Positions 26,610 to 48,614 of a DNA stretch of 64,000 nt are shown here, one piece after another. The notes beneath the pieces were generated by a model. That model was not told where the DNA came from. It made no database searches and worked only from the letters and a program-made list of their open reading frames with translations. Source of the DNA: Balneola sp. (GTDB lineage Bacteria; Bacteroidota; Rhodothermia; Balneolales; Balneolaceae); the NCBI GenBank assembly GCA_002696035.1, contig NZQV01000010.1, positions 620,001 through 684,000 of the forward strand, in the 5' to 3' direction. The position numbers and the translations under genes are program-made. Each line of letters opens with the position of its first letter. Position 1 is the stretch's first letter.

Positions 26610-27731
26610 ATGCAGTTTAACGTCTACCCTTTCAAACGCGGAAAAAAATATCGTTTGTACGTTCGATTTGAAGACCAACATGGTCAAACCAAAACCTTAT
26701 CGACTGGTGTAAGCTATCCTTTACGAACTAATAAGAAAGATCGCGAAAAGGCTTTCAAAAAAGCCCAGGAACAAGCCATTGAAATCGTCATGACTAATTT
26801 TAATGGTGGTGTTGACCCCCGAATTGATCCAACTCCCCTCCTTTCTAAATACTTAGAGGAAAAATACTTCAAGCACATAAAATTAGATTTGTCGGAGTCC
26901 TCCATTCGTATTTACACCAATGCCTTACATAATTTCGTTCGGATCTGTGGAGATCGCCGAGTAAACGACTATAAGCGCTCCGATATCCAAGATTATAAAC
27001 TCTATCGGATGGAAAACGAAGGCATAAAGAAAACCACCATCAATATTGAGCTGCGGAGTATAAAAGCCGGATTTAATTGGGGTTTAAAAAATGAATACAT
27101 AGAGCGTCATCCTTTCAAAAGCCAGGACTATATGTTTGAGGTAAAAGAAAAAAGATCAGAGTTTACCGATGAACAAATAGAACGTTTGTTTCAAGTTACG
27201 GAAGGTAAATCCATCGGTTTGGTTGTTCGTTTTGCCTACTACACCGGGCTTCGGATAGGATCTATTTCGGCAATGAAATGGAAGATGATTGATCTAGAAA
27301 ATAAGTCACTCAACCTGCCTAAATCTATAATGAAAGCAGAGAAACCTCTCTTCTACCCTTTGGGTGATAAAGCCTTTAACATAATTCAAGTCTGCAAGGC
27401 CCAATTGAAGAAAAAAAGGAAGGAACATCCCGAATGGTATGAAGATATTCCTTTTTCTGAGTGTCACGTTTTCCAAAAGCAAAACGAATCTGGTCGGTAT
27501 TCCATAAGAGGTATACAGGATATGTTTCGAACTGCAATGGATAAAGCAAAGCTACCTGATAGCTTAGTATTCCATTGCCTCCGTCATACATTCGCAACTC
27601 ACACGCTTAAAAAAGGTGGTAGCCTTAATGGGGTGAGTAAGTTATTAGGGCACTCTGAGATCGCTATAACGTCAAAATTCTATGATCATACCAGTACATT
27701 GCACTATCGGGAGGATGCGAATCTTCTATAA
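26610..27731 (+). CDS. Tyrosine recombinase / integrase
   Basis: 373 aa. An N-terminal Arm/SAM-like region covers residues ~1-170 and the catalytic domain ~185-370. The catalytic set is complete: Arg215 (YTGLRIGS), His322 and Arg325 (HCLRHTFA), His348 (LLGHSEI) and the nucleophile Tyr358 (SKFYDH). A clear GGAG ribosome-binding site at 26601-26604 precedes ATG 26610. It follows directly on the broken tRNA-Leu and faces the BREX operon, so it is the likely integrase of the element that carries it. A role in BREX activity is not suggested. Confidence 0.93.
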   Translation: MQFNVYPFKRGKKYRLYVRFEDQHGQTKTLSTGVSYPLRTNKKDREKAFKKAQEQAIEIVMTNFNGGVDPRIDPTPLLSKYLEEKYFKHIKLDLSESSIRIYTNALHNFVRICGDRRVNDYKRSDIQDYKLYRMENEGIKKTTINIELRSIKAGFNWGLKNEYIERHPFKSQDYMFEVKEKRSEFTDEQIERLFQVTEGKSIGLVVRFAYYTGLRIGSISAMKWKMIDLENKSLNLPKSIMKAEKPLFYPLGDKAFNIIQVCKAQLKKKRKEHPEWYEDIPFSECHVFQKQNESGRYSIRGIQDMFRTAMDKAKLPDSLVFHCLRHTFATHTLKKGGSLNGVSKLLGHSEIAITSKFYDHTSTLHYREDANLL

Positions 27732-28514: not shown

Positions 28515-30536
28515 CTACCCCTCCCTCAAATAAGTAATCTCACACCCCTTACACTTCCGTACTTCTTGGTAGTGATCTGCGATATCAAACCAGCCATTGG
28601 TCTTTTGGTAGATGTCCAAGCCACGACCCAAAATGATTTTCCATCCGTTATTTAATTGAATAGAGCGGTCATGAATCTCTTCATCAAACTCGTAGCTGAA
28701 TTTGATTCCAACAGGCTCGAGCGAGTTTATCATATCTGTGAATGCATCTTTAGCATTTTCGATATAATCTTCGTTGTTATTTGTTTTTAAATGGATAGTT
28801 ACCTCTTCATCCGGCTCTTTCAAATCCGCAACCAATCGTGCAAGTTCCATGAAGTTTTTCAATTGGTAGGGCAGCCTTATATAAGGATCGATTACATCTA
28901 TTTCTGTAGCTCCTTTAAGGTATGGACCAAATAATTTCTTATAACTTACCCCAGTCTGATTTTCCCTGATTATTTTTTGACCGGCTTCCGGCAGTCGTTG
29001 AGGTGATTTTTCTTGCTTCGACCCATCGTAACTTATTGTCTCTTCGCCTTGATCACTCTCTCCACCATCACCAGTCAACGATCCATACTCGATCACCTCA
29101 AGTGTCTGAATGGATTCCTTTTTACCGGATGAGTTTATAGTATAGCCGAAGTCAACCTCTTCAAAGGTCTCATCCATTTTTATTAGCTGCTGTTTTACCC
29201 GCATTCTATTCTCTATTGCTATGTCCAGCAGCTCTTTGGCTTCATCTTCGGTGTACTCTCCATGTGGATATATAACTTTCAGTAATCCGGAGAAAGTTTT
29301 GGACACAGAATCTCTATCTCTGGTTGTAATGGAATCAGATAGCTCAAAATAATTTTTATAAGCTTGGGTATTATCCTCTTTGCGTAGTTCCTTTAAAATT
29401 TCAGCCAGATAATCCACGATGAAACCATAATCCGTAGTAAACATCTCATTTCTAAGCTTTTGGATTTCCCACCCCGGTATGTAAGCATGAAGTCGATCTA
29501 AAAATGCAGTGTCGTAGTATTGTGGAGGCAAAGCATCAAATAGATCGCTATGTTTGATCATATAAGGCACTGCATGATCTGTGTTTCCAACAAAGGTCAT
29601 AGAAGCTGAGGCTCCATACACCTCTGTTCCCCTTGAAAAAGACTTATTGGCCATGTAATTCTTCATAATATCAACCAGCCCACGATCTGCTTTCTTCGTT
29701 TTTCCGGCAAATTCATCGTAAGCCACCACATCCCAGTAACCAACCAAACCTATATCTCCGGTACTATTGTTGACGAATAGCTTAGCTTTTGTCACTTCTC
29801 CACCGGAAATAAGAATTCCATGCGGTGACATCTCAGAGTAAATGTGAGATTTACCGGTTCCCTTAGGACCAAGTTCGATCAGGTTGTAATTATTCTCTGC
29901 AAAGGGTACCAGTCGGGTAAGCTGCAATAGCTTTGACCTGTCCGAGAATTCCTCAGGATTTAACCCAATGGAGTGCATTAAGGTATTTATCCACTCTTCT
30001 TTGCTGAAGTGCTTGCGGGCAGTTTTAAACTCCTCAAGATCGATATTCGCAATCTGAATCGGTTTAAGATTTTCAATTATCCAGGGAGAAACACCCTTCT
30101 CTTCCGTGTATTCATATCCGAGGGTTATGATGCACCAAACCCCACCGGACAACAATTTCTTATGAGTTGTTACAATCTGTGAATTGATACCAACATTTTT
30201 CAGGCCAAGGTTTGCAAAAGAGGCCTCATACATATCTTTATCTTCATTCAATCGGACCGATACTTTATCGATAATTCGATGCGATCCCTTTTCCCGAATG
30301 TTTGATTTAATGGCCTGCGATTCATCTCTGTGGACAAAATGATCTGCTATAATCTTTTTAACCTGTTCCACCCCCTGATTTATCGTTTCCTCGTCATCTG
30401 TCGCACAATACTGCCCTAACAAATATTCGAGTACATAAGTGGGAACTATTGCATTTCCCTTTACTAATTTAGTCAGGTCTTTTCTAACAACTTTACCCGG
30501 AAAATGCTGGTTTAATGCTTTATCTAATTCAGTCAT
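28515..30536 (-). CDS. brxL: BREX BrxL AAA+ protein with MITD1-like C-terminal domain
   Basis: 673 aa. Residues 1-460 match BrxL closely in pattern: the MTELD start, VVRKDLTKLVK, VLEYLLGQYCATDDEE, Walker A GPKGTGKS (223-230) and Walker B VVAYDEFAG (270-278). Canonical BrxL then ends in a Lon-like domain. Here a polar linker (~465-528) leads instead to a domain (~531-673) with IDPYIRLPYQL, IHDRSIQLNNGW and ILGRGLDIY, the hallmark set of the MITD1 C-terminal phospholipase-D-like fold. No Lon Ser-Lys dyad is visible. It lies 2 bp after pglZ. BrxL is a DNA-binding hexameric ATPase needed for phage restriction in type 1 BREX; the swapped domain may give a new target-binding role. Confidence 0.9.
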   Translation of the reverse strand: MTELDKALNQHFPGKVVRKDLTKLVKGNAIVPTYVLEYLLGQYCATDDEETINQGVEQVKKIIADHFVHRDESQAIKSNIREKGSHRIIDKVSVRLNEDKDMYEASFANLGLKNVGINSQIVTTHKKLLSGGVWCIITLGYEYTEEKGVSPWIIENLKPIQIANIDLEEFKTARKHFSKEEWINTLMHSIGLNPEEFSDRSKLLQLTRLVPFAENNYNLIELGPKGTGKSHIYSEMSPHGILISGGEVTKAKLFVNNSTGDIGLVGYWDVVAYDEFAGKTKKADRGLVDIMKNYMANKSFSRGTEVYGASASMTFVGNTDHAVPYMIKHSDLFDALPPQYYDTAFLDRLHAYIPGWEIQKLRNEMFTTDYGFIVDYLAEILKELRKEDNTQAYKNYFELSDSITTRDRDSVSKTFSGLLKVIYPHGEYTEDEAKELLDIAIENRMRVKQQLIKMDETFEEVDFGYTINSSGKKESIQTLEVIEYGSLTGDGGESDQGEETISYDGSKQEKSPQRLPEAGQKIIRENQTGVSYKKLFGPYLKGATEIDVIDPYIRLPYQLKNFMELARLVADLKEPDEEVTIHLKTNNNEDYIENAKDAFTDMINSLEPVGIKFSYEFDEEIHDRSIQLNNGWKIILGRGLDIYQKTNGWFDIADHYQEVRKCKGCEITYLREG

Positions 30537-30538
30537 AA

Positions 30539-33049
30539 TTATAGATCAAAATCATTGGGTTGAGATGCTACAAGCTGATATCGGAATTCCTTGTATTTCT
30601 TCCATTGTGAAGAGCCTTTGATTTCCTCTTCCAATCTAAGCACGATCCATTCTCCATAATGCTCAGAAGCAGCGCTGGATAGATGGAAGGTGTATTTTTC
30701 TTCTCTGTTTCGTTGAGAACCACTTTCAAAATCGAATGTAAACGTAAATTCATCAGAAAGCTTTGTGCCTTCTTCAGTGTAAATAGCAGCTTTCAGTGTT
30801 CGGGCCAATACTTTATCTGAAACCGGTTCTGTCTGAATAAATGATACCGGCAGCAGATTAGATGAAATTCGATCTGATTTTTTAATGATATCAATTTCAA
30901 CCAATTGCGCTTGCCGGCCGGCTTTGTATCCGACTTTCATAACCGGAATTAACACTTCCTGGATGGAAGCTCCCCCATGCACAAACCTGCTTCCGGCTCC
31001 TCTTACTCGTAATCTGTTGATGGATTTAGGAATGAGCACATCTAAGTCTTCTTGTAACCCGAGCTGACCTCCTTTAAAATGTGTGAATGAATCATTGCCT
31101 TTTAGTCCCTTTCCAAGAACAAACCTGCGGTTAAATTTCCACACATCCCCATCAACTTCTGAAACCGCAAAATCACTTTCGTGGAGTTCTTCATTTTGAT
31201 ATAAAAATCCATGATCGGAAGTTACCAACACATTCGTATGAGCCATGATCGTGTTGATTCTTACCAACAGATTGATCAAATACTCAAGTTCTTCTTCTAC
31301 CACTTCAAACACCCTTTGTTCGCTGTCTCTGTCATCTCCGGTTTTATCGATGAGGTTATGGTAGATATAGATCAGATCATGAGCCTTTGTAAAATCCCGA
31401 CCTTCTTTCTTACTGTGCATTTCCATGTAAGCTTCGGCACTAATAGCAGCAGACTCAATATCCGGAATTTGTTTCAGAATCTTTTCGCGGGATTGCTGTC
31501 CTACTGTTGAGTTCCCATTGCTTTCAACCGTGTCTCCACCCTCTTTGATTTCAAGGTTGGAGTGTGGTAAAAGTGATGCCATTCCCAATTGAGTGTAAGA
31601 AGGAAGGGAACTGATCATGTATGAAAAATCATCTTCAACAAAGCGATGATCTGAGATCATCTTTTGGAACAGTTCTCTTCCGGCCTCATATCTGAGTGCA
31701 TCTGAAATTACTACGATCACACGCTGCTGCTTGTCAACAAAAGGTTTGACATATTGATTATAAAAGTCTGCCTGAGCAGTCCTTCCTGTAGATGGCCAGA
31801 CCTCTAAAGTATCCACCTGATGTTGCCACTTTTGGTTTATGTTCAACAGCCAATCGTTGGAATACATCTTTTCAATCTTATCGGCCAGAGCTTTTAGAAT
31901 GCTGCTTTGCTTACTCAACCTATAATTGAACACAAACTTTCGATAATAGAAATCTACCTGATAAAGGGATTCGCTGTACCGTTTCGCCCCGTCTTCTAAA
32001 GAATTGAAGAAGATTTCATTTGTATCAAAATCCCGAATTGAATGAATAAGTAATGATGCATACTCAACTGCTTCGTAAAAAGGTTTAAAGGTGGAGTGCC
32101 AAAACTTGTTCGTCCGGATTCTACAGATATTCTGCACTCGTTCATCCGAAATATCCTCATCAAGTAGTAGTGTAACCATGCTCGACAGTATTTCACGATC
32201 TGTTCGTTCAAACAAGTCATCGGAAACAAGCTCATCGATCGGTTTACCTGATACCAGTTGATCAATATCCAGGTCTTCCTGTACTTGCTTTGAAAGATTT
32301 TTAAAGGATTCATCAATCCCTTTTGTTTGTTTCCAGCGGGAAAGCAGAATTTTAGCTTCGTGATGATTTGTTCCGGTTCGTGTAATCGGAAAGTGCTCTT
32401 TGAATATGGTAAGCAAGAAATCGTATAAAGAGGGTTCAGCTACAGCATAATCATACCGCTCTGCTACTTTATCCCAGAAGAATTGCCTTAGCTCAAAACG
32501 ATCCAGCTCATTTTCGATCTGTTCTTCTTTTCCATTCGCTTTCTGTGTTATGAATTGTAGCAGCTGCCCTTGCAGATCCACCTCGATCGTATTAAATGTG
32601 ACAGACAGCATTTTATTCAAACACTGGTCATAAGAATCTTTAGGGTTATACAGCTCAAGGAACTTCTCGTTTCGTGCCTTACTATCAAAGAATTTGGCAT
32701 GGTTATCTACCAAAGGTTTGAGCTCAAAGGGTAAACCAAGCTCCTGAAGAACTAAACCGGAGGGGTCGCTATGATACACCTTATGCGCTAGTTGCAGATC
32801 CAATAACCAATTATCCGAGTCTTTAGGCTGCTCATATGGAAAGTACAGTAAGAATTTTTGTTCAGGCTGCTTTTTACTTACCAAATGCTTCACAAAAAAT
32901 GGATTCCCATCACAGTTCACCTTCTCAACGGCATCCAGATTTAACGAACTAAATGCTTCACTAAATTCCTGTTCCGAATCATACCAAAATATGATGCGGT
33001 GCTTTTCAAACAGGCCTTTAAGATTCTTTTCTAACTTATTTTGTGTCAT
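30539..33049 (-). CDS. pglZ: BREX phosphatase-like PglZ (type A)
   Basis: 836 aa, the normal length for PglZ-A. The alkaline-phosphatase-superfamily core is visible as VIVVISDALRYEAGRELF near residue 448 and VTSDHGFLYQ near residue 608, which carry the metal-binding Asp/His. The N-terminal region shows the PglZ pattern (KHRIIFWYD, then FDSKARNEKFLELYNP). PglZ is essential in BREX and acts with PglX and BrxC; its natural substrate is unsettled. It begins 9 bp after the giant helicase and ends 2 bp before brxL. Confidence 0.93.
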   Translation of the reverse strand: MTQNKLEKNLKGLFEKHRIIFWYDSEQEFSEAFSSLNLDAVEKVNCDGNPFFVKHLVSKKQPEQKFLLYFPYEQPKDSDNWLLDLQLAHKVYHSDPSGLVLQELGLPFELKPLVDNHAKFFDSKARNEKFLELYNPKDSYDQCLNKMLSVTFNTIEVDLQGQLLQFITQKANGKEEQIENELDRFELRQFFWDKVAERYDYAVAEPSLYDFLLTIFKEHFPITRTGTNHHEAKILLSRWKQTKGIDESFKNLSKQVQEDLDIDQLVSGKPIDELVSDDLFERTDREILSSMVTLLLDEDISDERVQNICRIRTNKFWHSTFKPFYEAVEYASLLIHSIRDFDTNEIFFNSLEDGAKRYSESLYQVDFYYRKFVFNYRLSKQSSILKALADKIEKMYSNDWLLNINQKWQHQVDTLEVWPSTGRTAQADFYNQYVKPFVDKQQRVIVVISDALRYEAGRELFQKMISDHRFVEDDFSYMISSLPSYTQLGMASLLPHSNLEIKEGGDTVESNGNSTVGQQSREKILKQIPDIESAAISAEAYMEMHSKKEGRDFTKAHDLIYIYHNLIDKTGDDRDSEQRVFEVVEEELEYLINLLVRINTIMAHTNVLVTSDHGFLYQNEELHESDFAVSEVDGDVWKFNRRFVLGKGLKGNDSFTHFKGGQLGLQEDLDVLIPKSINRLRVRGAGSRFVHGGASIQEVLIPVMKVGYKAGRQAQLVEIDIIKKSDRISSNLLPVSFIQTEPVSDKVLARTLKAAIYTEEGTKLSDEFTFTFDFESGSQRNREEKYTFHLSSAASEHYGEWIVLRLEEEIKGSSQWKKYKEFRYQLVASQPNDFDL

Positions 33050-33058
33050 CTAAAACAA

Positions 33059-36000
33059 CTATTTCTCTGAGTTAAACCAACAAAATACTTTGCCATCTCC
33101 AACATAGAATTTATATTTTTCTTTTGTGAATATAGCAGTTGATATATCCTCTATGAGGAAATCATTAAAATTACTTACCCCGATTTGATCTTTAAAAGCA
33201 TTTTTAGATCCAAAATATTCTTCTTCGAAGTTATATTGATCGAACCTTGAAACGGGATGCTCATTTGTAAGAACCTCTTGGTCAATCTCGTTAACTTTTC
33301 GCAATGAGCTTGGATCAGGAGCTAAAATAAACAATTTCTTTTTAGCTCTACTGATTGCCACATTAATCAAATTTTTATTATTAAAGAATGTAGCTGATGA
33401 GTTTGAAATTTTGCTTGGGTTTTGGACAAGTATCACATGATCGGCTTGATCCCCTTGTGCTCCATGAACTGTTGATGCACTAATATTTGCATTACCAAAT
33501 CTAGACTCATCATTCTCCAATATATCTCTGAGAATTCTTGCCTGGATTCCATAAGGACTTAAGAGTAAAATACTTTCTTTATCCCCTACTACAGAACTAA
33601 TTCTATCGGCGAGTTCAATTGCAAGCACACAAGAATAGATATGATATATCGAGTATTTCCTATACTTATTTAATTTTGTGATTGGATTGCTCTCATTATC
33701 TACTCCGTGGACATCAAAGTTTAGATAGTAAATTTCATCTTTAAACTTTTTATCTAACTCTCCGGGGGTTTTATCATAGTAGTGTGAAAGCAATCCGTTG
33801 TACAGATATTTAGAATAAAGCTCTCCTATTATTCTATTACTCCTATACTGGGTTTTTAGATTATCAATCTTATAACCACCAATTGGAGTTTTTTCAATAT
33901 TAAATTTTTTCAGATCTAATAATGAATACAAGGATACCGTAGTCCACCCTTTGTAGGCAGTCTCTCCAGGATGAGGGGTCATCCCTACCGGTTTTATTTG
34001 AAATGGGTCACCAGCTATGGTAACCTTTGGTAATTTAGAATTACCTACTTCTGTTTGTGAGTTTACTGTTAGCAAAGCATGCAATGCATAAGCTAAGGGT
34101 ACCATAGAGGCCTCATCAATGATCAAATACTCATCACAATCCTCACTCCCATTTAAGTAAACCCTAACAGGATCATTAAATACATAACGGTGAATGGTAG
34201 TTGCAACTAAGGTTTGATTACCGCTTGGTAAAGATCTACCAACTAAAGTACTCGGGATTTTATCACTCTTTGAGTTTCCAAATCGATAAACAATTTCTGA
34301 GCTAAAATCACTTTTAAGAAAACTGATCAACAACTCATTTTCTTGCTGTGAAAAGCCTATATCCAATTCAAGTAACTGATCCGGTTCGTGAATTAGGTCC
34401 AGACATTTTTCTATAAAAACATCCGCAGCTTTATTTGTGGGAGTTAGTGTTAGAACTTTTGCCTGTCCATCATTCTCTTTTGCCTGCGCTAAAGCCAATA
34501 AAGATAGAATTACCGATTTTGTTGTTTTTCCGGTTCCCGGAGGGCCAAAAATGAAACCTAATGAATTTGAATCCCATTTCTTTGTTATTCGATCCTTTAA
34601 ATCATCATCTTTCACTATTAACTCATTCGCAAATAATTCATGATGTAAACCGGTTAACCAAGGATCTGTTTTAGGAAGCTTAATAAAGGCTTTAATTTTA
34701 GGATCTCTACAAAAAGAAGCTAGTTCGTTCTTACTTGCTCCTTCAAGCAAGCGAAGTTCAATTTCAAAATCTCCAACTTCTATAACTGAAGCAGATATCT
34801 TTATTTTATCAGAAGTATTTTCGGAATAAATTTCCACATGCTTTAATTCTTCAAAAACTTCAAGAAATCCGGGAATTGTATCATACATATATTTACTCAG
34901 TACAATCGTACCCGTAGATGCAGACTTCACCGAATTAAACTTCAGTTTCGTACCCCTGTAATAATTTTCTTCCTTTCTGGCTTTCTCCCATAAAATTGAG
35001 TTTTCTAACCATTCTCCGGAATTTATCTTCGACTCTCTGGTAAGCTGCTTATAAAAATAATCATCAGATCTTCTATTTCTTGCTTCATTTGGATCTATCT
35101 TTTTATAGTCATTAAGAATGTTTTGAACAGCATCATTAGCCGATGCATTATCATTCATTTTTCCTTTAATAAGACCATATAGGTTTTCTTCATCCTCAAA
35201 TGTATCAGTAATACCACCTATAAAGACCGTTTCAGTTTGATCATCCAGATTAAAATAATTCTCCTCATACCTTTTGAAAACGAAACCATCAAATTGGTAA
35301 CATTGGGGGATCTTTCCTTCAAATAAGTGCAAAGAGTACTTAATATCCGAACGCTCCCACTCTTTGATAAATCTATGAGATAGATTTAGTCTTTGTTGTT
35401 TACCAATTTCTACATCGTTTTGAGAAACGATCTTAATTTCTTTCAATCCATTTGTGTAGAATTGCTCAGTATACTCTGCATCAACCAGATAAAAATCATT
35501 ATCAGAGATGGTTTTTAGAATATCATCCAAGTTATAGTTTGGTGATTCTTTGTTATTTTCAGTTATAAGATAAATATCTCCTTCTGCTAAATGGTCTTTT
35601 AACAATGGCTGAATAGTAGGTTCATGCCCGGAAACTTCTACTATGACTGGTAAAGGAACACTTGAACGACCAACCGATTTTGCTTTAGCTGAAGTAATGA
35701 TTTTTGCTAAGACAGATTTCGTAAATCCTGTTAGATGAGCTTCATGTACTGATAAGAATTCAAATAACCTGGAGAAATCTTTGACTTCTCGTAACTCATC
35801 AATTAAGCCAGTTTGCTTTGAGTCTGCATAATTTTTAATAATTGATCTTCTTAATTTGACGTGAGGATGCTTTTCGGTTTTTAGTCCGTTCTTTTCAAGA
35901 AAAGCTACCCTATTTGAAATTTCACTCTTCGTGCTTTCCAGCCATTCGATGAGTGGACTAATTAAATACTCACTTTCCAGACCAAACTCATTTGGGTAGA

Positions 36001-38410
36001 TACAATCGCTCAGTCCTTTCTCTATTACAAAATTCTGAAACTGCTTTGGAAATGGCAGTTTGTTTTGGAATAGATACTCCAATGTTGGTCCGATTAATTC
36101 TTGATCTACCTCACCGAACAGCTTTTTATTCTTCTGAACACTGTAAATAAGAAGAAACGTTAATTGTGCTGCAGTTAATCCAGTCTCGGATCTATCGATC
36201 TCATTTTTGATCGCATTTTTGTTACGCTCGCTGCCGATATCAAATAATATATCAACGTCGACTTCCAATTTTTTTAATGCTTTATATACCGGAGCAAATA
36301 CCCCTGAAGTTTCCTTAAATGAGTTAGGCAGTATTTCAGAAAGTTTTAAAACAATTTTCTCCCCATCTAAATCAAAACCTACCTCATCTTTTGTAGCAAC
36401 TTCTTTTAACGGATACTCTTTTCCCGATGTAGATATGACTACAAACTGCCCTCTAAAGGCTTCTGAAAATTCTTCTTCTTTTATAAATGGTTTAGCTAAA
36501 CTTAACAGCTCGATCAGCGTAGTGTTTTCGCTATTAACTTCTTCTGCCTTAAGCTCAATTCTTCCAAAGGATTTTAAAAAGTTTTGTTTTGCGGAATTAC
36601 TATCACAGTTCTTTACTAATTCAAATATTCCCTTTATTTCTTGAGCATTCTTCCAAAAATCACTTCCAAGAGTACCATCAATACATTCTTTAAGTTCATC
36701 CTTGAGGATTCTTTTATCCTTATCAGAAAGTTGATCGAGCCATTCTACAAAATGATCCTTCTCAATCTTACTTATGATCGTCGCTACATTCCAAACCTTA
36801 ATGTTCATTATATCATAAGCGGCATCTTTAATCGTATCATGGATATTTCCGTCTTCTTCGAAATCAAACCACTCAACCTTATCTCTTAATATATCAGCAG
36901 GTATATCCAGAGAAGAATTTTTCATTGCCACATTTTTAGCCGGGGCATACCTCTCCTTTTTAACAGGCACATGCTCTTTAAACTCCTTAAGGAGTGGCCA
37001 AAACAGTCTCTCTTTAATCCACTGCTCTTTAATGCCATTTTGGCCGGATAGAAGAACACTAAGAAATAGGTCTTTGTAAAGCTTCCTATTCTGTGTTCTA
37101 TAATCTTTTAATCGATCTATAAAGTGCTTAGTGAAGACTGAAAGTAATTTTTTATTCAGCTCGTCATCCTGCTGAAACTCTCTTCTGCTTGTTTCAATAT
37201 TGAATGCATTACAGTGGAGAACAAAGTTCAATTGATGCTTCTCTTTACCCATAGGGAAATACTTAAAGAAATTTGGCTCATTTCTTAATAAACCAATTTC
37301 TTCTTCTATTTCACCTGAATAAGCTTCATAAGCATATCGAAACTTGATATCAATCCCTTGATCCTTCTCCTCAAGAAATTCCTGTATTTCTCTATAATCT
37401 TCATCCTCACTTTTAATGATAATAGGAGCATCTACCTGTAAGTTTACATTATCAGCTGTTATCGGGTCATGCCTGTTAAAGAAGATGGTTTTAAGGCTAT
37501 CCGATTTTCGTAGAGTCTCTATGAATCGAAGTGAGTAGTTTAGCCCAGACCGATAAAAGTCAAAATCTTCATCAAGTTTCTTCTTTTTTCCTTTCCCTAG
37601 TTTTAGATAGAATAATGAGCCTGTAGAGAGATCACTTTCTTCAAGCTCTTCATACCTAACCGCCCAAAAATTGTTTAAAAACGTAACAAATTCATCAAAC
37701 TCATTTTCCCCGAAAATGAGTTTTTCCTTCTTAGTGATGGAATCGTAGTTAATATCCTTAACATCAACATCATACTTCTCCGGTACCATTGGGAAACAGG
37801 TCAATAGGAACTTAAAAAGCCAGGGCTCATCTCCATTTAGATTTTCACTGCCCAATTGGAGATCGGTAAGGTTCTCGATTTGACGAAGTTCTTCAAGTTG
37901 TTCCCTATTATGCCAACTGAACATAATTGGGCCTGCATATTCATTAATAAGCTCATCAACACCGCTTTGTGCACCAACCATCCGGTGAATTAATTTAAAC
38001 CCAACTCCAAACCGACCTATCATCTCTTCATCTTGTGGAGAGGTTTTATTTGAGGCACCTACACTTAAAATGGAAAGAATATCTTTTTCTGTAAATGTAT
38101 CCCCATTATTTAATGCAATGAATCTTTCCTCATCGTAATACATAAAGAAATCAGAGGAATTTGCATCTACCGCATTCTGAACAAACTCGAATATAGCCTG
38201 AGTATCCTGAGCCATATTCAGATTAGTGGTTAGTTTGTTCCTAATAGTTTCTGTACGACCGTTTATATGGTCAAAAAAACCAAATGTAACTTTATTAGTT
38301 TCTGGATCTATATACTCGTGGCCAATAAAATCAGGATCTAAGTTTGTAAAATCTTTTCTACTACATTCAAATTCTCTGAATTTTGGAATGTTCTTTATCT
38401 GTAGTGCCAT
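33059..38410 (-). CDS. GHKL-ATPase / SF1 helicase fusion protein, BREX-associated
   Basis: 1783 aa. The N terminus is an HSP90/sacsin-type GHKL ATPase with N-box FEFVQNAVDAN (74-84), G1 LNNGDTF (100-106) and G2 IGRFGVGFK (131-139). About 1000 residues without recognisable motifs follow. The C-terminal third is an SF1 helicase of the UPF1/Dna2 type with Walker A FGPPGTGKT (~1285-1294), Walker B IIDEAS (~1428), TVHGAQGDQ and the arginine motif NVAISRAKKKLFIL (~1685). It occupies the place between the nuclease and pglZ genes where some BREX types carry a brxH helicase, but the GHKL part is not typical of those. It probably couples ATP-driven clamp closure to DNA/RNA translocation. The gene is AT-richer than its neighbours. 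Confidence 0.85.
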   Translation of the reverse strand: MALQIKNIPKFREFECSRKDFTNLDPDFIGHEYIDPETNKVTFGFFDHINGRTETIRNKLTTNLNMAQDTQAIFEFVQNAVDANSSDFFMYYDEERFIALNNGDTFTEKDILSILSVGASNKTSPQDEEMIGRFGVGFKLIHRMVGAQSGVDELINEYAGPIMFSWHNREQLEELRQIENLTDLQLGSENLNGDEPWLFKFLLTCFPMVPEKYDVDVKDINYDSITKKEKLIFGENEFDEFVTFLNNFWAVRYEELEESDLSTGSLFYLKLGKGKKKKLDEDFDFYRSGLNYSLRFIETLRKSDSLKTIFFNRHDPITADNVNLQVDAPIIIKSEDEDYREIQEFLEEKDQGIDIKFRYAYEAYSGEIEEEIGLLRNEPNFFKYFPMGKEKHQLNFVLHCNAFNIETSRREFQQDDELNKKLLSVFTKHFIDRLKDYRTQNRKLYKDLFLSVLLSGQNGIKEQWIKERLFWPLLKEFKEHVPVKKERYAPAKNVAMKNSSLDIPADILRDKVEWFDFEEDGNIHDTIKDAAYDIMNIKVWNVATIISKIEKDHFVEWLDQLSDKDKRILKDELKECIDGTLGSDFWKNAQEIKGIFELVKNCDSNSAKQNFLKSFGRIELKAEEVNSENTTLIELLSLAKPFIKEEEFSEAFRGQFVVISTSGKEYPLKEVATKDEVGFDLDGEKIVLKLSEILPNSFKETSGVFAPVYKALKKLEVDVDILFDIGSERNKNAIKNEIDRSETGLTAAQLTFLLIYSVQKNKKLFGEVDQELIGPTLEYLFQNKLPFPKQFQNFVIEKGLSDCIYPNEFGLESEYLISPLIEWLESTKSEISNRVAFLEKNGLKTEKHPHVKLRRSIIKNYADSKQTGLIDELREVKDFSRLFEFLSVHEAHLTGFTKSVLAKIITSAKAKSVGRSSVPLPVIVEVSGHEPTIQPLLKDHLAEGDIYLITENNKESPNYNLDDILKTISDNDFYLVDAEYTEQFYTNGLKEIKIVSQNDVEIGKQQRLNLSHRFIKEWERSDIKYSLHLFEGKIPQCYQFDGFVFKRYEENYFNLDDQTETVFIGGITDTFEDEENLYGLIKGKMNDNASANDAVQNILNDYKKIDPNEARNRRSDDYFYKQLTRESKINSGEWLENSILWEKARKEENYYRGTKLKFNSVKSASTGTIVLSKYMYDTIPGFLEVFEELKHVEIYSENTSDKIKISASVIEVGDFEIELRLLEGASKNELASFCRDPKIKAFIKLPKTDPWLTGLHHELFANELIVKDDDLKDRITKKWDSNSLGFIFGPPGTGKTTKSVILSLLALAQAKENDGQAKVLTLTPTNKAADVFIEKCLDLIHEPDQLLELDIGFSQQENELLISFLKSDFSSEIVYRFGNSKSDKIPSTLVGRSLPSGNQTLVATTIHRYVFNDPVRVYLNGSEDCDEYLIIDEASMVPLAYALHALLTVNSQTEVGNSKLPKVTIAGDPFQIKPVGMTPHPGETAYKGWTTVSLYSLLDLKKFNIEKTPIGGYKIDNLKTQYRSNRIIGELYSKYLYNGLLSHYYDKTPGELDKKFKDEIYYLNFDVHGVDNESNPITKLNKYRKYSIYHIYSCVLAIELADRISSVVGDKESILLLSPYGIQARILRDILENDESRFGNANISASTVHGAQGDQADHVILVQNPSKISNSSATFFNNKNLINVAISRAKKKLFILAPDPSSLRKVNEIDQEVLTNEHPVSRFDQYNFEEEYFGSKNAFKDQIGVSNFNDFLIEDISTAIFTKEKYKFYVGDGKVFCWFNSEK

Positions 38411-38453: not shown

Positions 38454-39386
38454 TTATATCCTAATCTTCTGAATCTCCGGTTTCGTAGCCTTCTCTAATC
38501 GTACCATGGATTCAACCACTTTCTCATAGATCGTGTCCCACTCCTCTTCCGGGGTCTGCCAGCCTCCAACTTCGTAGTCTTTTTTAATGACGCAGGAACG
38601 TGATCCTTCCAGTTCTTCCCAATCTAAAGATTCACCAAATATTTCCTCTATTTGGTCTTTCTTAGTAAGTAATTCGTTGAAAATGGCTAAATTTTCATCA
38701 TCAGCCTCTTTACCCCGATCAATGTAGATTTTCAAGGAAATAGAATCTTTTTTAATCCAGTAACTATAGTTCACACCGCGGAGCCCGGAGCTGGTACCTA
38801 TCCAGTTATAATGCGAGGGAGATATAGAATTGAATAAATTGTGCCTTGACTTAGAGTGCTCGAGTAAACCATCCCAAAACCTGAACCGAAGCTTATGCCG
38901 TTCTGATTTAGCCTGCTTAGTCTTACCGATACTTTTCGCTTCTTCACTGGGACCAACAATTTTAGTCATTAATGGCGCCGGATCTGATTCACCAATCTTA
39001 ATACCCTCAATTTTGATCAAATAGAAATCAGCTTCCGTAGATTCATTAAGCCATGATATGGCATTGATATGTTCCTGCCTTGGTTCAGCAACGATCCAGA
39101 TAGCAACTTTTGCTTCAAAAGAGGTCAGATAGGTGATTATCTTTCCCAAGTGATCATGATCGCTTTTCTCTAATTGATTTTCGATCACAATAATATTGCC
39201 GGAAGCATCTTCAGCGGTAATATCCACATTAAAGCTGCCGGTGGATTGTTCGATCTCAGGGTTTATGATCTCCAAGCCAATGACTTCTTTCAGGATATCA
39301 ATGTTTTCCTGCAACCAGGTGGTAAAATCGTAGGCTTCGTGTTTCCATATATCTCGTAAGTGTACCCGGGTGATTCTGTCTATCAT
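38454..39386 (-). CDS. PD-(D/E)XK-like nuclease, DUF4268 type
   Basis: 310 aa. The N-terminal half has a nuclease-like core: FNVDITAED (Asp55), then IIVIENQLEKSDHDHLGK with Glu69 and Gln71 in an E-x-Q version of the E-x-K motif. The C-terminal half (from ~165, FRFWDGLLEHSKSR) fits the DUF4268 region found after this domain. Such proteins are frequent in restriction and BREX neighbourhoods. Catalytic activity is inferred, because the Gln variant is also seen in related nucleases. It lies 9 bp after the protease gene. Confidence 0.75.
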   Translation of the reverse strand: MIDRITRVHLRDIWKHEAYDFTTWLQENIDILKEVIGLEIINPEIEQSTGSFNVDITAEDASGNIIVIENQLEKSDHDHLGKIITYLTSFEAKVAIWIVAEPRQEHINAISWLNESTEADFYLIKIEGIKIGESDPAPLMTKIVGPSEEAKSIGKTKQAKSERHKLRFRFWDGLLEHSKSRHNLFNSISPSHYNWIGTSSGLRGVNYSYWIKKDSISLKIYIDRGKEADDENLAIFNELLTKKDQIEEIFGESLDWEELEGSRSCVIKKDYEVGGWQTPEEEWDTIYEKVVESMVRLEKATKPEIQKIRI

Positions 39387-39395
39387 ATCTTTTTT

Positions 39396-40235
39396 CTATT
39401 TTTGTTTTAGAATACTTTCAAAACCCTTCAATGCCCTTGCTTTAATTACATTGCCAAGGTTATTTGGTATTGCTGTCAATGAAACCGGTATATTTTCAGT
39501 AGGAATTGTTTCTACTTTAATCTCTCCCTTCGCATTGTATTGAGGCCCTGCATACAGAGTACCAAGTAGTTTAACTCTGCTTTGACCTAAGATGTGTCCT
39601 TTTCTTGTTTGATAACCGCCTAAATTCATCAAAAAAACTGGCGAACCGCTCGAGCCGGGAAAGCAAGCAGCATCTATCATAAACTCCGGTTTACCATTGT
39701 AATCTTTCGCAGGATGAGTAGCGGTAATCCCCTTTCTAAAGACTGGTTGATTATTAACTGAATCCCAGATTCCATTTGGATACCCTACCATAACGATATC
39801 TTCCATAGCCGTTAACTCATCAATTTCATCTTGAGATGGAATAAAGTCATTACCAATAGAGATAAAGAACGGCTTTTTATTTTGTTCTTGCATTCTCATA
39901 ACCAATGGCGCAATTGGAAATATGCATAGATCAATTTCTTCCTTAGGATGCATAAACCATTGTTGCTCGATATTCGTCAATGTTACATGGAATAGTTTAT
40001 TTGTAGGCTTCCCATTTTCCTGCAGATTTACTACAAATTCAACTTTCGCTCCATTTCTTATAACATGCTTGTTCGTCACAATTACCGGCATATTAGCATT
40101 TTCAACATCACTCAGGTAGCCAAAGTCATAAAAGTACCCGGTTCCAGAGGAAGGCCTGCCATCCTTCTTGGTGCAAATTATTCGAACTGTTGAATATGCT
40201 AATTGTTCAGTAATTGAAAGATTTAAATCACTCAT
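39396..40235 (-). CDS. Trypsin-like serine protease in BREX operon
   Basis: 279 aa, with no signal peptide, so it acts in the cytoplasm. The chymotrypsin-fold triad can be read as His57 (VTNKHVIR), Asp102 (IDLCIF) and Ser196 (FPGSSGSPVF). A glycine-rich oxyanion region precedes the Ser. The start overlaps the pglX stop by 4 bp (ATGA), so its dose is coupled to the methyltransferase. Canonical type 1 BREX has no such protease. Trypsin-like modules occur in other defence systems as effector or sensor proteases. A role cleaving a partner after phage sensing is an inference. Confidence 0.85.
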   Translation of the reverse strand: MSDLNLSITEQLAYSTVRIICTKKDGRPSSGTGYFYDFGYLSDVENANMPVIVTNKHVIRNGAKVEFVVNLQENGKPTNKLFHVTLTNIEQQWFMHPKEEIDLCIFPIAPLVMRMQEQNKKPFFISIGNDFIPSQDEIDELTAMEDIVMVGYPNGIWDSVNNQPVFRKGITATHPAKDYNGKPEFMIDAACFPGSSGSPVFLMNLGGYQTRKGHILGQSRVKLLGTLYAGPQYNAKGEIKVETIPTENIPVSLTAIPNNLGNVIKARALKGFESILKQK

Positions 40236-43200
40236 CTAATCTCCTCCGAGTCAATCCAGTCAAACTCTTTCACTTTCTTTTTCTTCTTTTTGTCGTTCAG
40301 GCTTGTTACTTCTTCTACGGCTTGACCAAATTTGTTGTAGTTGACCAACACGCCGTCGTCTAAGTCGATCTCGATGCGGTCGGTGGCGAGGGGCATAAGG
40401 ACGTCCCGCTCGTAGCTTTCCAGCTCTTCTATCATGGATTCCACTTTACGCTGCTCTTTTTCGGCTTTGTTTACTTCCTTGGCATCCTGTGAGCTGTTGA
40501 TCACATCTTGCAGGTGGGATTTTTGGTAGTTGAGCTTGCTCTTGAAGTCTCGCAGGTAGCCGTTGAGCATGTGATTGAGGGTGTCCGGGGTATAGCGGTG
40601 CATATATATGAGCGCTTTGAAGACCCCGTTCTCGGAACTGAACTGCCAGTAAAGGGGCCGCTTGTTGTAGCGTTTGTAATGGTCTTTATAGAAATATTTG
40701 GAGAAGTAGGTGCGGATGTCGTAGCCGAGTTTGTCCTCGATGAAGGCGAGGTTTTTCTCGAAGTTTTGCTCTCCGAAGCTGGCGCGCAGGAATTGATAGA
40801 ACAGTCCAGTGATATCATCCTCAAACCAGTCGTCTTCCAGCACGGGAATGATATTATCCTCATCCGGTAGAAAGGTGGCTTCGTTTTCGGGTTTCCCGAT
40901 TCGCTCCAGGTAATCCTCAAGAGTCTCACCCTGATTAGCTAAAATGAGTCCTTCTTTATCCAGGCTGTACCGACCAAACATGCAGCCCACAGCATAGCTG
41001 ATAAACTGTGCAAACACTTCCTTGTCTTTGAATGGCAGATCGGGATTTCTCCCTTCTGACTTCTGTCTCCTGAGTTCTGCATCCTTCTTCTTCAGCTTTT
41101 TGGAATCCAGCTCTTCCTGCAAAATGGTAATCTCATCCAACGGCACTTCCGGGGTGAGTTCTTCCTTCAACCCGTAGATCTCAATAAACTGCCGGTTTAG
41201 CTCTTCTTCGTTTTGGTGGAGCTGAAAGAATTTATTGGTCCAGTATTGCCGGTAGTGCTCGTAGGCATCTTCTAGGTTATCAATGCCGCCTTCATTGTTG
41301 AAGCGAATTAATTCAAACTCTTTAAAATCAATTGATGTTTCATGAGTATCCCAATCGCTTTGAGATATTTTGTTATTAGTGTCTATTAAACTTGTCTTGA
41401 TCTCCTTATTAAATGCAATCGGTATTTTTTTTATATCTATAAATTGAAATACAAGTGTTGGGTTAAATGCTTTCACATAATAGTTTCCTACAACAGAATT
41501 AAAAAAACCTTGCACCCAATTTAGTTTATCTTCATGCCCTTCTTTGAAGAAAAAAGACACAGTTGTTCCATCGAAAGTACCTCTATTATCTAATGTTCTA
41601 CAGTTAACAATATTAGACATTCTGGAAAATGTTAAGCCATCTCTAAACCAAAGATATTTCTTTATTAGCCTTCCTGATTTTGTGCTCTTGTATAGTTTTT
41701 TGGCATCTTCTCTCCAATCAATTAAATATTCAATATTTCCTTGCCATTTTCTGTAATCGCCGCCTTTTGCTATTGGTATAAAATCTTCCAAGAGATTTGC
41801 TCTTTCAATTTCCCAATGCATCCTAAAAAACCTATCATTTTTACCTGTTACATTTTTCCCATCTATAAAGGCAATATCATCTAATTTTTTAAACCTCTTA
41901 AAAGAGGAGTAAAATGGTTTGTTAAACCAATAACATATTGGACTCCCATCAATTTGACTGAATTCCTCTGGCTCAATTTTATACCTCCAACCACAATTTT
42001 CTGTATTTAATCCTTCTAAAAACTTTTCCCTTTTTAAATTCGAGTCTTTATAATTAATAAGTCTAAAAAAGACTCCTTTTTTATCAATCGTGTCATTTAT
42101 AAATGTAAATGAAGCATTTTGAACTACTTCTCCTCCAATTTCAGGAAAAGTTCGGGGACCTAAATGTAGGAGTGTATCGGTAAAAGATTCTGATATTAGC
42201 TTTTCTCTTAGCTCTTTATAGCTGCTTAGAAACATCCAACTATGTTGGTTGATCATTCCAAGCATTCCCATATTTTCAAGGCTGGTTAAACCACATTCCA
42301 TAAATGCTGCCATTAAGTCTGATTTACTATCAGGGTAATTGGCATACACAAAATCTTTAAGCTCTTGATTACAATTTCCAGTACCCATATAAGGCGGATT
42401 ATCAATCACACAACAAACTTTAGTTCCAAGTTTTTCAAGCGTATCCAAAGCAAACATCAACTGTTCCAACTTCTCCTTCTCAAACAGATCCGCTGAGTCC
42501 ATTGCCTGTTCACAAGCTAATTTGGCTTTTCCTATCTCCTGCAACGATGCGTGAGGCACAATCAGCGATCCAAAGTTAGTTGCCTGTTGCATGTTTTGGA
42601 GGTCGTGGAGCAGTTCATCAGAAGTTTCAACCCCAGCACTTTTTAACGTGTCTTTTATCTCCTCATCACTCAACATCAAGTCTTGAAAACAAGTAATGTT
42701 GGGTTCAGGTACGTCAGACTTTCGGAAGAGCCGTCGCTGGTGCTCCCGTGCTTTCATCAGAATAGCGAGTCCCGCCAGTTGGGCTGCCCGTTCATCAATT
42801 TCAAAGCCATGGAGGTTGTGTTCAATGATTAGCCGGGGAATATCAGACGGGGCATAGCCTTCCTCTTCATAGATCTTATAGAGCAGCTCAAAGCCGTACA
42901 CCAAAATATGTCCCGAACCACACGCCTGGTCTAACAGCGTAAGCTCTTCGGGTTTGTCAATGGTGAGCACATCCTCTGCCGTCACCTCACTTTCAATGTA
43001 ATACTCCATGTGCTCCTTCAGGCGGGAGTTGGGATGATTCAGCACCCACAGTTTACCCACGGTATTCTGCACCATGTACTCCACAATCCATCGGGGCGTA
43101 AAGAGCTGCGTAGCTGCGGGAATTTCCTCTTTCTTCACCTTCCCTTTGGAGGCGAATACCTCATCTTTCTTCTCGGAAATGTAGAACTGGTAGAGCCATC

Positions 43201-43792
43201 CGAGAATTTCTACCTGTTGGCAGTCTTCGGCGGTCATGCCATCGGCCACATCATGGATCACCGAGTGTTCTGAAATGAGGTCGGCCGGCAGCAGCAGTTC
43301 GCTGTAATCGGCAATGGGCTCAAACAAAAAAGGGAAAATGGAGTGCAGGTTATTACAAGCCGCCACCAACAGCAGCTTAAAGACTTCGTTTTGCGGGTTT
43401 TGGCTATCCAGTGTGCCATCCAGTAGTTGGTTTATTTTGGAGCGGTTCACCTTAAAATCATCCGGGATGATGCCCTGCTTGGCATCGCTGAGGATCTGCG
43501 GCTCGGTAAAGCCGTCTTGCGGGGAGACAACCCGCACGTGGAAAGGCTGGTAATCATTCACATCCATATATCGCAGCGCCACCAGCCGGTTAAACCAGGT
43601 ATAGGCTACTTTATCAATGAGCTCTTCGCGATTGGTTCGCTTCAGCTCTTTCCTTAAAGCCTCAATTTGCTTTTGCTGCTCACGGAGTTCGGGGGAATCG
43701 GTATTCAACACATAATCCAGCCGCTCCTCCACCCGCTTTAATAACTTGGTTCGCGTTTCCTGTGCAAATTTCTTGAGTTTGTTGGTGTTCAT
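40232..43792 (-). CDS. pglX: BREX adenine-specific DNA methyltransferase PglX
   Basis: 1186 aa, full length for PglX of type 1 BREX. The SAM-binding motif I DQACGSGHILVYGF is near residue 287 and catalytic motif IV NPPY near 464. The N-terminal helical region (RTKLLKRVEERLDYVL) and the long C-terminal domain match the family. It should methylate N6 of adenine in a non-palindromic site, marking self DNA. The stretch 41.28-42.40 kb (residues ~464-837, the target-recognition part) is visibly more AT-rich than both flanks, suggesting domain exchange. Its start overlaps the upstream HTH gene by 4 bp. Confidence 0.95.
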   Translation of the reverse strand: MNTNKLKKFAQETRTKLLKRVEERLDYVLNTDSPELREQQKQIEALRKELKRTNREELIDKVAYTWFNRLVALRYMDVNDYQPFHVRVVSPQDGFTEPQILSDAKQGIIPDDFKVNRSKINQLLDGTLDSQNPQNEVFKLLLVAACNNLHSIFPFLFEPIADYSELLLPADLISEHSVIHDVADGMTAEDCQQVEILGWLYQFYISEKKDEVFASKGKVKKEEIPAATQLFTPRWIVEYMVQNTVGKLWVLNHPNSRLKEHMEYYIESEVTAEDVLTIDKPEELTLLDQACGSGHILVYGFELLYKIYEEEGYAPSDIPRLIIEHNLHGFEIDERAAQLAGLAILMKAREHQRRLFRKSDVPEPNITCFQDLMLSDEEIKDTLKSAGVETSDELLHDLQNMQQATNFGSLIVPHASLQEIGKAKLACEQAMDSADLFEKEKLEQLMFALDTLEKLGTKVCCVIDNPPYMGTGNCNQELKDFVYANYPDSKSDLMAAFMECGLTSLENMGMLGMINQHSWMFLSSYKELREKLISESFTDTLLHLGPRTFPEIGGEVVQNASFTFINDTIDKKGVFFRLINYKDSNLKREKFLEGLNTENCGWRYKIEPEEFSQIDGSPICYWFNKPFYSSFKRFKKLDDIAFIDGKNVTGKNDRFFRMHWEIERANLLEDFIPIAKGGDYRKWQGNIEYLIDWREDAKKLYKSTKSGRLIKKYLWFRDGLTFSRMSNIVNCRTLDNRGTFDGTTVSFFFKEGHEDKLNWVQGFFNSVVGNYYVKAFNPTLVFQFIDIKKIPIAFNKEIKTSLIDTNNKISQSDWDTHETSIDFKEFELIRFNNEGGIDNLEDAYEHYRQYWTNKFFQLHQNEEELNRQFIEIYGLKEELTPEVPLDEITILQEELDSKKLKKKDAELRRQKSEGRNPDLPFKDKEVFAQFISYAVGCMFGRYSLDKEGLILANQGETLEDYLERIGKPENEATFLPDEDNIIPVLEDDWFEDDITGLFYQFLRASFGEQNFEKNLAFIEDKLGYDIRTYFSKYFYKDHYKRYNKRPLYWQFSSENGVFKALIYMHRYTPDTLNHMLNGYLRDFKSKLNYQKSHLQDVINSSQDAKEVNKAEKEQRKVESMIEELESYERDVLMPLATDRIEIDLDDGVLVNYNKFGQAVEEVTSLNDKKKKKKVKEFDWIDSEEIR

Positions 43793-48047: not shown

Positions 48048-48614
48048 TTATAGTTTGAAGGCTCGGTAATAATTCTTCTTAAGTCGCCCGAAGAGCCTTA
48101 GGTATTTACCGTCATATTCACCCGGGTAAAAAATGACCGTCGGTGAATTCACAGCAATGCTTTGGATGTTATTTAAAATTTTGTGAGACCGTATCAAGGG
48201 ATAAGCTAATCCAACACCGGTTATAAAATATAAGTCAGCCTCGCTGTTTTTAATTCTTTTTTCGATCTGAGGGATATACACTTCATCAAAGTGCATAGTC
48301 GAAAGCATGGCTTCTTTAAATTCTTGCCTGGGCATCTCCCCTTCAAGTTCAAAGACTTCATCGAGTCCTAATTCCCGATCTAACAACTCCATTTGCAGAT
48401 CATAAAGGTTTAGCTCAAGCACCTTGAGCCCTTTGTTTTTCAGCTTGGTTACTAACCCTTCAACCGCCCCCGAAATGCTTACTTCATCAGCAGGATCATA
48501 TGTAAATACATGGAATGGTATTTCACCGCTCAAGTTCTTCATTTGAAGGAAGTCCTCTGTCGTGACCTTATCGAACAATTCCGTAAACTTATGATTGATC
48601 TCTTTTGCGTTCAT
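48048..48614 (-). CDS. brxB: BREX protein BrxB (DUF1788)
   Basis: 188 aa. It matches the DUF1788/BrxB pattern, with the FHVFTYDPADE stretch near residue 30, LYFITGVGLAYPLIRSHKIL in the middle and VIFYPGEYDGKYLRLFGRL near the end. BrxB is a small protein of unknown biochemistry needed for BREX assembly. In type 1 systems it follows brxA; here it follows a nuclease gene by 76 bp and precedes brxC by 10 bp. Confidence 0.93.
   Translation of the reverse strand: MNAKEINHKFTELFDKVTTEDFLQMKNLSGEIPFHVFTYDPADEVSISGAVEGLVTKLKNKGLKVLELNLYDLQMELLDRELGLDEVFELEGEMPRQEFKEAMLSTMHFDEVYIPQIEKRIKNSEADLYFITGVGLAYPLIRSHKILNNIQSIAVNSPTVIFYPGEYDGKYLRLFGRLKKNYYRAFKL

Follow-up and report, generated by a model that had tools for sequence, protein, structure and literature searches.

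The 64,000-nucleotide stretch of Balneola sp. DNA analyzed here (contig NZQV01000010.1, positions 620,001 to 684,000; hereafter the window) carries, at 33059-38410 on the minus strand, a gene for a 1783-amino-acid protein in which a GHKL ATPase module is joined to a superfamily 1 (SF1) helicase; the gene lies inside a type I bacteriophage exclusion (BREX) operon, from whose core genes it deviates in base composition. The N-terminal and middle parts of the protein follow the PADLOC model of the Tiamat protein TmtA, and the helicase, whose motifs are intact, stands at an end that in relatives of the same carrier is exchangeable for other domains. Our favored reading, to which we give a probability of about 0.45, is that of a horizontally acquired auxiliary effector, in which a Tiamat-type carrier would position a helicase on foreign DNA; the protein resembles a second line of defence taken over from elsewhere, not a part of the BREX core.

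The fusion reported at this place by an initial annotation of the window is a real open reading frame (ORF), which begins with ATG and runs uninterrupted on the minus strand, a strand which that annotation had left unstated; the plus strand of the same frame is rich in stops. Tiamat TmtA is the first-ranked PADLOC name for the product (model PDLC03970, E 3.9e-151). The union of a TmtA-type N terminus and a helicase in one ORF is no accident of this assembly, since the same architecture is shared by 16 of 64 additional loci, as well as by a further genome of the phylum (G033); two joined genes or a frameshift artefact were likewise dropped as an explanation, as the ORF contains no stop and the architecture recurs elsewhere.

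Domain architecture of the fusion protein

Residues 5-577 (36680-38398) correspond to positions 3-538 of the 1552 in PDLC03970, and residues 1-577 scanned alone match this model at E 9.4e-135; Pfam places SACS at residues 60-142 (1.7e-8) and HATPase_c_3 at 71-148 (1.6e-7). In an AlphaFold model of residues 1-1130, built with 46 sequences (mean predicted local distance difference test score, pLDDT, 66), the blocks as far as about residue 570 mostly reach a pLDDT of 80-98, some dipping into the 60s, and confidence is poor past about residue 600. Residues 36-540 (36791-38305) are predicted to form a GHKL ATPase followed by an S5-type transducer, and align with the Hsp90 protein Hsc82 (6xlc; Z 13.5, root-mean-square deviation 5.2, 261 residues), with Morc3 (5ix2; Z 12.9), with sacsin SR1 (5v44; Z 12.7, 25% identity over 179 residues), and also with the folds of MORC2, topoisomerase VI and GyrB; the 50 fold-match rows span Z-scores of 13.5-11.4, too close for a nearest fold family to be singled out. 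Foldseek alone gave low template-modelling scores of 0.12-0.22 by query and 0.23-0.52 by target in its first 30 rows, for a query model whose second half is of low confidence.

The motifs of GHKL ATPases comprise an N-box ExxxN, a G2 box GxxGxG, and a DxG or DxGxG box with its Asp. The N-box is found at residues 75-79 (38174-38188), where E75, Q78 and N79 are invariant in the alignment of 46 sequences, which bears out Glu75 and Asn79 as first annotated; G132, G135 and G137 of the G2 box are equally kept in 46/46. At the presumed DxG site, whose equivalence was judged by eye, all 46 sequences carry N101-x-G103. The initial description of two complete ATPase engines thus holds for the motifs, present at both ends, and is uncertain for ATP turnover by the N-terminal one.

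The C-terminal module, a UPF1/IGHMBP2/Dna2-like SF1 helicase by the fold matches of its model, takes up residues ~1111-1749 (33164-35080) and is matched in Pfam by AAA_12 at 1514-1697 (2.8e-21), AAA_19 at 1282-1476 (1.6e-11) and AAA_11 at 1270-1338 (1.8e-9). The model of residues 1001-1783 (17 sequences, mean pLDDT 63) resembles human UPF1 (9qwn; Z 17.2 over 500 residues), IGHMBP2 (4b3g; Z 16.9) and Dna2 (5eax; Z 14.7), with alignments spanning 480-500 residues. The Walker A sequence GPPGTGKT at residues 1289-1296 (Lys 1295; 34523-34546) is the same in all 17 sequences, and ten residues assigned to the SF1 motifs (K1295, D1432, E1433, G1467, D1468, R1523, Q1652, G1653, D1654 and R1688) are kept in 17/17; the helicase motifs are intact, and the module is a putative helicase of the UPF1-like kind. 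A BREX helicase of the BrxHI/BrxHII kind was dropped as an identification, no such name being among the families listed. The structure prediction that had been proposed for the whole protein, here made in two pieces, returned GHKL-S5 and SF1 helicase folds at the two ends, whereas the middle is of low confidence.

This middle region, residues 589-1064 (35219-36646), nevertheless follows PDLC03970 positions 918-1353 (E 1.3e-22 with the protein scanned in pieces). A profile made from the middles of 41 helicase-less relatives matches residues 595-762 (1.6e-21) and 802-887 (1.2e-4), and this match begins at position 450 of 870; therefore, the stretch that comes after the N-terminal module appears to be missing in the fusion. 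PDLC03970 positions ~539-917 (some 380) and 1354-1552 (the last ~200) are unmatched by the protein, and no TmtA model is among the PADLOC matches to residues 1111-1783 alone. Since residues 5-577 and 589-1064 match PDLC03970 and residues 1111-1783 match no TmtA model, the protein is, judged by its sequence, a shortened Tiamat scaffold with about 380 model positions fewer and with a helicase in the place of the last 200. The two ends are indeed separated, as initially annotated, but "~1000 residues without known motifs" overstated the gap, residues 36-540 being one GHKL-S5 unit and 589-1064 matching Tiamat; likewise, GHKL and SF1 engines are both present, but rather than two unrelated engines joined, they appear as a Tiamat-type scaffold with an exchanged end.

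Relatives and exchangeable C-terminal ends

The 64 relative loci were collected from genome contigs by searching for the N-terminal module with two short peptide patterns from a three-sequence alignment, and they are for this reason a biased sample with some near-copies. In 16 of them the helicase is encoded in the same ORF (2225-2318 amino acids), in one a DarT domain is, 40 proteins longer than 1000 amino acids have neither (phmmer), and seven are cut or short. The architecture thus exists outside BREX loci, where the initial annotation had proposed to look for it, BREX genes having been detected in the fetched DNA of none of the 64. Single-linkage grouping by the C-terminal 300 residues was applied to 64 proteins, namely P0001-P0007 and those of 57 loci (the seven cut or short ones were left out), and gave one class of 35, a helicase cluster of 22, a DarT cluster of two, and small clusters of two, two and one. 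DarT, a toxin domain, was identified in P0002 (4.9e-20) and L099 (1.2e-20), and among the C-terminal pieces of the 41 helicase-less proteins NOV_C, a putative nuclease, was matched in seven and DarT in one; helicase, DarT and NOV_C are accordingly the ends found on one carrier and constitute the evidence for their exchangeability. The GHKL carriers at L031:5529-11351 and L099:10001-15838 show the DarT ADP-ribosyltransferase followed by a further shared C-terminal domain, with no helicase.

Another set of proteins, P0004-P0007, from two genomes and from Chryseobacterium and Hymenobacter plasmids, combines a sacsin-type N terminus with the same helicase family (by Pfam in P0004-P0006, by BLAST in P0007); P0006 shares 27.9% identity with the fusion over 727 columns of the C-terminal part. 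They resemble the window protein in having GHKL and SF1 helicase in one polypeptide and an N terminus also called TmtA, but this call is made via models other than PDLC03970, and they are therefore best seen as a second subfamily; the plasmid copies, moreover, lie beside methyltransferase and DEAD-helicase genes, not BREX. Between P0003 (the fusion of G033) and P0005, the N termini show 30% identity over 125 columns and the helicase ends 56% over 659. In the trees, the helicase of P0005 falls within those of window-type carriers (100/100), whereas its N terminus is placed with the sacsin-type subfamily (100/100); its two parts thus belong to different subfamilies, which indicates an exchange of modules. 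The exchange pair is located at L034:7419-12182 and L032:6227-13150. In the N-terminal tree, for which 35 rows were chosen (28 from the 64 loci plus seven others), the window protein groups with helicase-less relatives at 91/89, and its helicase sits on a very long branch (5.3-6.0); the window fusion is possibly a separate fusion event, with a placement made unsure by the very long branches.

Matches to the fusion at E 1e-3 were obtained in 64 of 394 genomes of the phylum, nearly all of them short GHKL or helicase matches; strong N-terminal matches besides the window's own genome are confined to G373 (3.9e-65) and G033 (2.1e-62), and helicase-end matches to G033, G236, G079 and G390 (2.5e-42 to 1.5e-27). 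Four plasmid records align within the C-terminal part only (1059-1741 at most), and of five stretches of viral contigs that matched a pattern, none encoded a relative.

The reference proteins used to look for neighbors of the relatives were limited to those of type I restriction-modification (R-M) and a few others, and the counts are lower bounds, since many loci stop at contig ends. Type I R-M genes lie beside eight of the 16 helicase-fused loci, and a RecD-like helicase gene is present in eight. In L067, L069, L072 and L093 the order is HsdM, HsdS, RecD-like helicase, fusion, HsdR and YgjP-like; in L085 the fusion precedes the RecD-like gene, so that in five R-M loci the fusion stands between hsdS and hsdR in the company of a RecD-like gene. 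L081, L083 and L086 are partial R-M loci, and L066, L068 and L078 have the RecD-like partner without R-M genes; Pfam confirmed HsdM, HsdR, YgjP and the RecD-like helicase in L069. In G033, P0003 (2307 amino acids) is encoded on the same strand as, and downstream of, BrxB-BrxC-PglX-PglZ-BrxL, with four genes between, which by Pfam are a KAP NTPase, one without an above-cut-off match, a sub-cut-off QueC-like protein and a TatD DNase, and which we take to be a Qat system; BREX locus (L169), Qat-like set and GHKL-helicase (L032) are successive on one strand. The G033 fusion is a neighbor in a defence island, not an insertion inside the BREX operon.

The BREX operon, its accessory slot and signs of recruitment

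The operon was rightly annotated as BREX, as the models of BrxB, BrxC, PglX, PglZ and BrxL all match, and the host locus is a type I BREX operon. Its genes, all on the minus strand, are brxB (48048-48614; PADLOC BrxB 1.9e-55), brxC (44531-48037; PADLOC BrxC E 0), pglX (40232-43792; NF033452 E 0), pglZ, of the BREX-1 PglZ type A (30539-33049; TIGR02687 E 2e-208), and brxL (28515-30536; PADLOC BrxL E 0). Read along that strand, an AAA protein, a PD-(D/E)XK protein, BrxB, BrxC, an unknown protein of 219 amino acids and PglX are followed by a trypsin-like protein, a DUF4268 protein, the fusion, PglZ, BrxL and an unknown protein of 198 amino acids. The fusion gene is 43 bp from the preceding DUF4268 gene (38454-39386; PADLOC candidate PDC-S11) and 9 bp from pglZ, and this same-strand placement is counted in favor of the auxiliary-effector reading. 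The PD-(D/E)XK protein and the AAA ATPase are encoded upstream of brxB, at 48691-50809. A BrxA-like ORF was not found in the window, the best hmmsearch E-value being 0.046 with a model of six sequences presumed to be BrxA by size and position only.

PglZ was searched for in the class, where 50 of 244 genomes match at E 1e-3, many of them weakly or partially, and in the phylum, where 24 of 394 match at E 1e-50, the window's genome being counted in both cases. Thirty other genomes have PglZ at E <= 1e-50; for 26 of them the region was fetched, and pglX and pglZ are both readable in 20. In 14 of these 20 loci more than 1 kb separates pglX from pglZ, and in none of the 20 does the gap hold a GHKL protein or a fusion-type helicase (phmmer, E 1e-3); the fusion is not a core component of BREX in general, in line with the original remark that a GHKL-helicase is no usual part of it. 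Of the larger extra genes, ten were submitted to PADLOC. The nine that lie in the gap comprise two UvrD-like genes, three weak pAgo matches, one PDC-M36A and three unmatched, and the tenth, located between brxC and pglX, is HEC-06/Orf5-like. Since the gaps are often longer than 1 kb and hold varied extra genes, the pglX-pglZ gap can be regarded as an accessory slot. In Salmonella LT2, according to PMC9009780, an ATPase-DUF4435 pair lies between pglX and pglZ.

In the window, the same slot is also occupied by a trypsin-like protease gene (39396-40235, minus strand; Trypsin_2, PADLOC candidate PDC-S45) and by the DUF4268 gene, whose product is 84% identical to that of L160:90-1022 in another genome, there directly before pglZ. 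The PglZ of that genome is only 42% identical to the window's, so the DUF4268 gene appears to be mobile independently of the core; in genome G364 a DUF4268 gene adjoins pglZ, and there is no fusion there. A fixed module of fusion, trypsin-like and DUF4268 genes was dropped for this reason, and because neither companion was found in the 64 loci.

The proposed recruitment of the fusion is favored by its composition, with a GC content of 34.6 and 29.0 at third codon positions (GC3), as compared with 40.0-42.9 and 39.2-49.2 for the BrxB, BrxC, PglX, PglZ and BrxL genes, and by its distribution, since its N-terminal model matches only seven of the 243 other class genomes (of 244), over no more than 66-117 of 600 positions. 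The trypsin-like gene and two small unknown genes are also low (GC3 31-32). Recruitment and modularity are well supported; the route would have been horizontal acquisition. Beside the BREX block, a phage-integrase-family gene is present on the plus strand (26610-27731), a hint of a genomic island; searches for tRNAs in the 64-kb window and, at the settings used, for direct repeats flanking the block gave none.

Possible function, rival readings and known systems

In the favored reading, the GHKL part, with its Hsp90/MORC/topoisomerase-like fold, would dimerize and close, either around foreign DNA or on a restriction complex that has stalled; once closed, it would hold or license the helicase, which would then unwind or strip the foreign, presumably phage, DNA, perhaps beginning in this operon at PglZ nicks. 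Such a start, and with it a coupling to PglZ, would fit the activity of PglZ as mainly a nickase, whose nicks have been proposed as a signal to auxiliary effectors in PMC12839542. The phage-sensing or DNA-loading role put forward in the initial annotation is likewise conjectural. More widely, and still somewhat short of even odds, the Tiamat-type proteins may form a modular class in which a GHKL clamp with exchangeable DNA-acting heads (the UPF1/Dna2-like helicase, the DarT ADP-ribosyltransferase and NOV_C, included in the same tentative estimate) is nested as a second layer in type I R-M or BREX systems, clamps DNA or restriction complexes that have failed, and so brings its head into action.

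Several observations weigh against the favored reading. UPF1-like helicases act on RNA too, and because Asn (N101) replaces the Asp of the presumed DxG box in 46/46 sequences, the N-terminal ATPase activity may be weak or absent. Of the 41 helicase-less C-terminal pieces, 33 match neither NOV_C nor DarT, and it is uncertain that all heads act on DNA, NOV_C being a putative nuclease. The link with BREX consists of two cases, one within an operon (the window) and the other, in G033, downstream of a BREX locus and separated from it by four genes; the fetched DNA of all 64 loci is devoid of detected BREX genes, and five of the 16 helicase-fused loci (L065, L077, L087, L088 and L096) show none of the sought R-M or RecD-like genes. 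As for composition, the yardstick was the core genes only, and the DUF4268 gene of the same slot is not AT-rich (GC 40.8, GC3 44.1).

A rival reading is that of a Tiamat-like defence gene which stands alone and makes use of the BREX slot and promoter, its carrier sensing a phage product and its helicase acting without contact with BREX. The occurrence of the architecture without BREX in 16 of 64 loci, the five of these without R-M or RecD-like company, the low GC content, and the lack of more than a short match in any other of the 244 class genomes agree with such a gene; nevertheless, half of the 16 helicase-fused relatives lie beside type I R-M, five of them between hsdS and hsdR, an adjacency that suggests some coupling to modification-based systems, and we consider this reading unlikely, if still deserving of weight. 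The same recurrent R-M and BREX company would be expected for a protein that guards methylation-based systems, idle as long as BREX or R-M works and unleashed as a lethal or strong effector once a phage inhibitor has disabled either. A precedent in the same slot would be the Salmonella LT2 pair, which we presume to be PARIS, and DarT stands in the helicase's place in P0002 and L099; PARIS senses Ocr, as stated in PMC12839542. However, an AriA model is absent among the 11 PADLOC families listed for the fusion protein, a helicase would be unusual as a lethal effector, and no sensed inhibitor is known, so that a PARIS-like guard seems unlikely, slightly more so than the stand-alone gene.

The position between core genes and the failure to find a BrxA-like ORF in the window (given the best E-value and presumptive model described above) might instead mean that this BREX cannot do without the fusion, which would serve it as a DNA-loading or remodelling subunit and perhaps make up for the lack of BrxA. 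Its absence from all 20 other readable slots and a composition unlike that of the core genes make this very improbable; BrxA, moreover, can be diverged or fused according to PMC12839542. The initial annotation had itself asked whether the fusion is a described core component of a named BREX subtype, and a word search in the main text of that 2026 survey gave no sign of one. Lower still do we rate an Hsp90/sacsin-like chaperone of large defence complexes with a helicase acting on RNA; the nearest folds do include Hsp90, sacsin SR1 and the RNA helicases UPF1 and IGHMBP2, but the proteins keep company with DNA modification and restriction genes, and one alternative head, DarT, is a single-stranded DNA enzyme by its Pfam name, which leaves this reading scarcely credible.

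If a carrier that delivers exchangeable heads is the right description, Tiamat-type proteins gain a readable logic, with a common carrier and a variable head; what the carrier senses might be learned from a direct comparison of the versions ending in helicase, DarT and NOV_C, and the nesting in R-M and BREX would show plug-in second layers to be common to modification-based systems. Layers of this kind are already published, as paraMORCs in R-M and nucleases in BREX (PMC12839542), and the Tiamat-helicase extends the idea. No description of a Tiamat-type GHKL-helicase fusion was found in the titles, abstract beginnings and passages covered; the main text of PMC12839542 contains no GHKL, Hsp90, sacsin, HATPase, MORC or DarT, and that of PMC12458937 no GHKL, Hsp90, MORC, sacsin or Tiamat.

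Among known systems, Mokosh is similar in the helicase, since the SF1 core of MkoA (PDLC03920) matches residues 1111-1783 alone at E 4.1e-28; it differs in that MkoA is matched only at positions 617-698 and 888-1072 of 1112, and in that the N-terminal and middle pieces of the fusion match no Mokosh model. The Mokosh partner is a PLD-type nuclease; none is among the PADLOC matches listed for 16 window ORFs, in which no search aimed at it was made. The auxiliary or backup effectors of BREX described in PMC12839542 are, like the fusion, extra genes inside the core locus, but those treated in its main text are nucleases, and the word GHKL does not appear there. The MORC and paraMORC proteins, the latter being the subject of PMC8011034, are similar as GHKL-S5 ATPases near R-M genes; their succession of GHKL and S5 domains is present in residues 36-540 by fold alignment, and they already furnish published cases of GHKL proteins in R-M operons whose fused ends can be exchanged, with restriction endonuclease or TIR ends in PMC2292703 and HEPN ends in PMC3710099. 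Their helicases, however, are separate SF2 proteins in the former account, whereas in the window protein an SF1 helicase is fused. From Tiamat itself, whose TmtA scaffold is already known as a PADLOC model, the protein takes its N-terminal and middle parts and differs in the two unmatched stretches of that model and in its SF1 helicase end.

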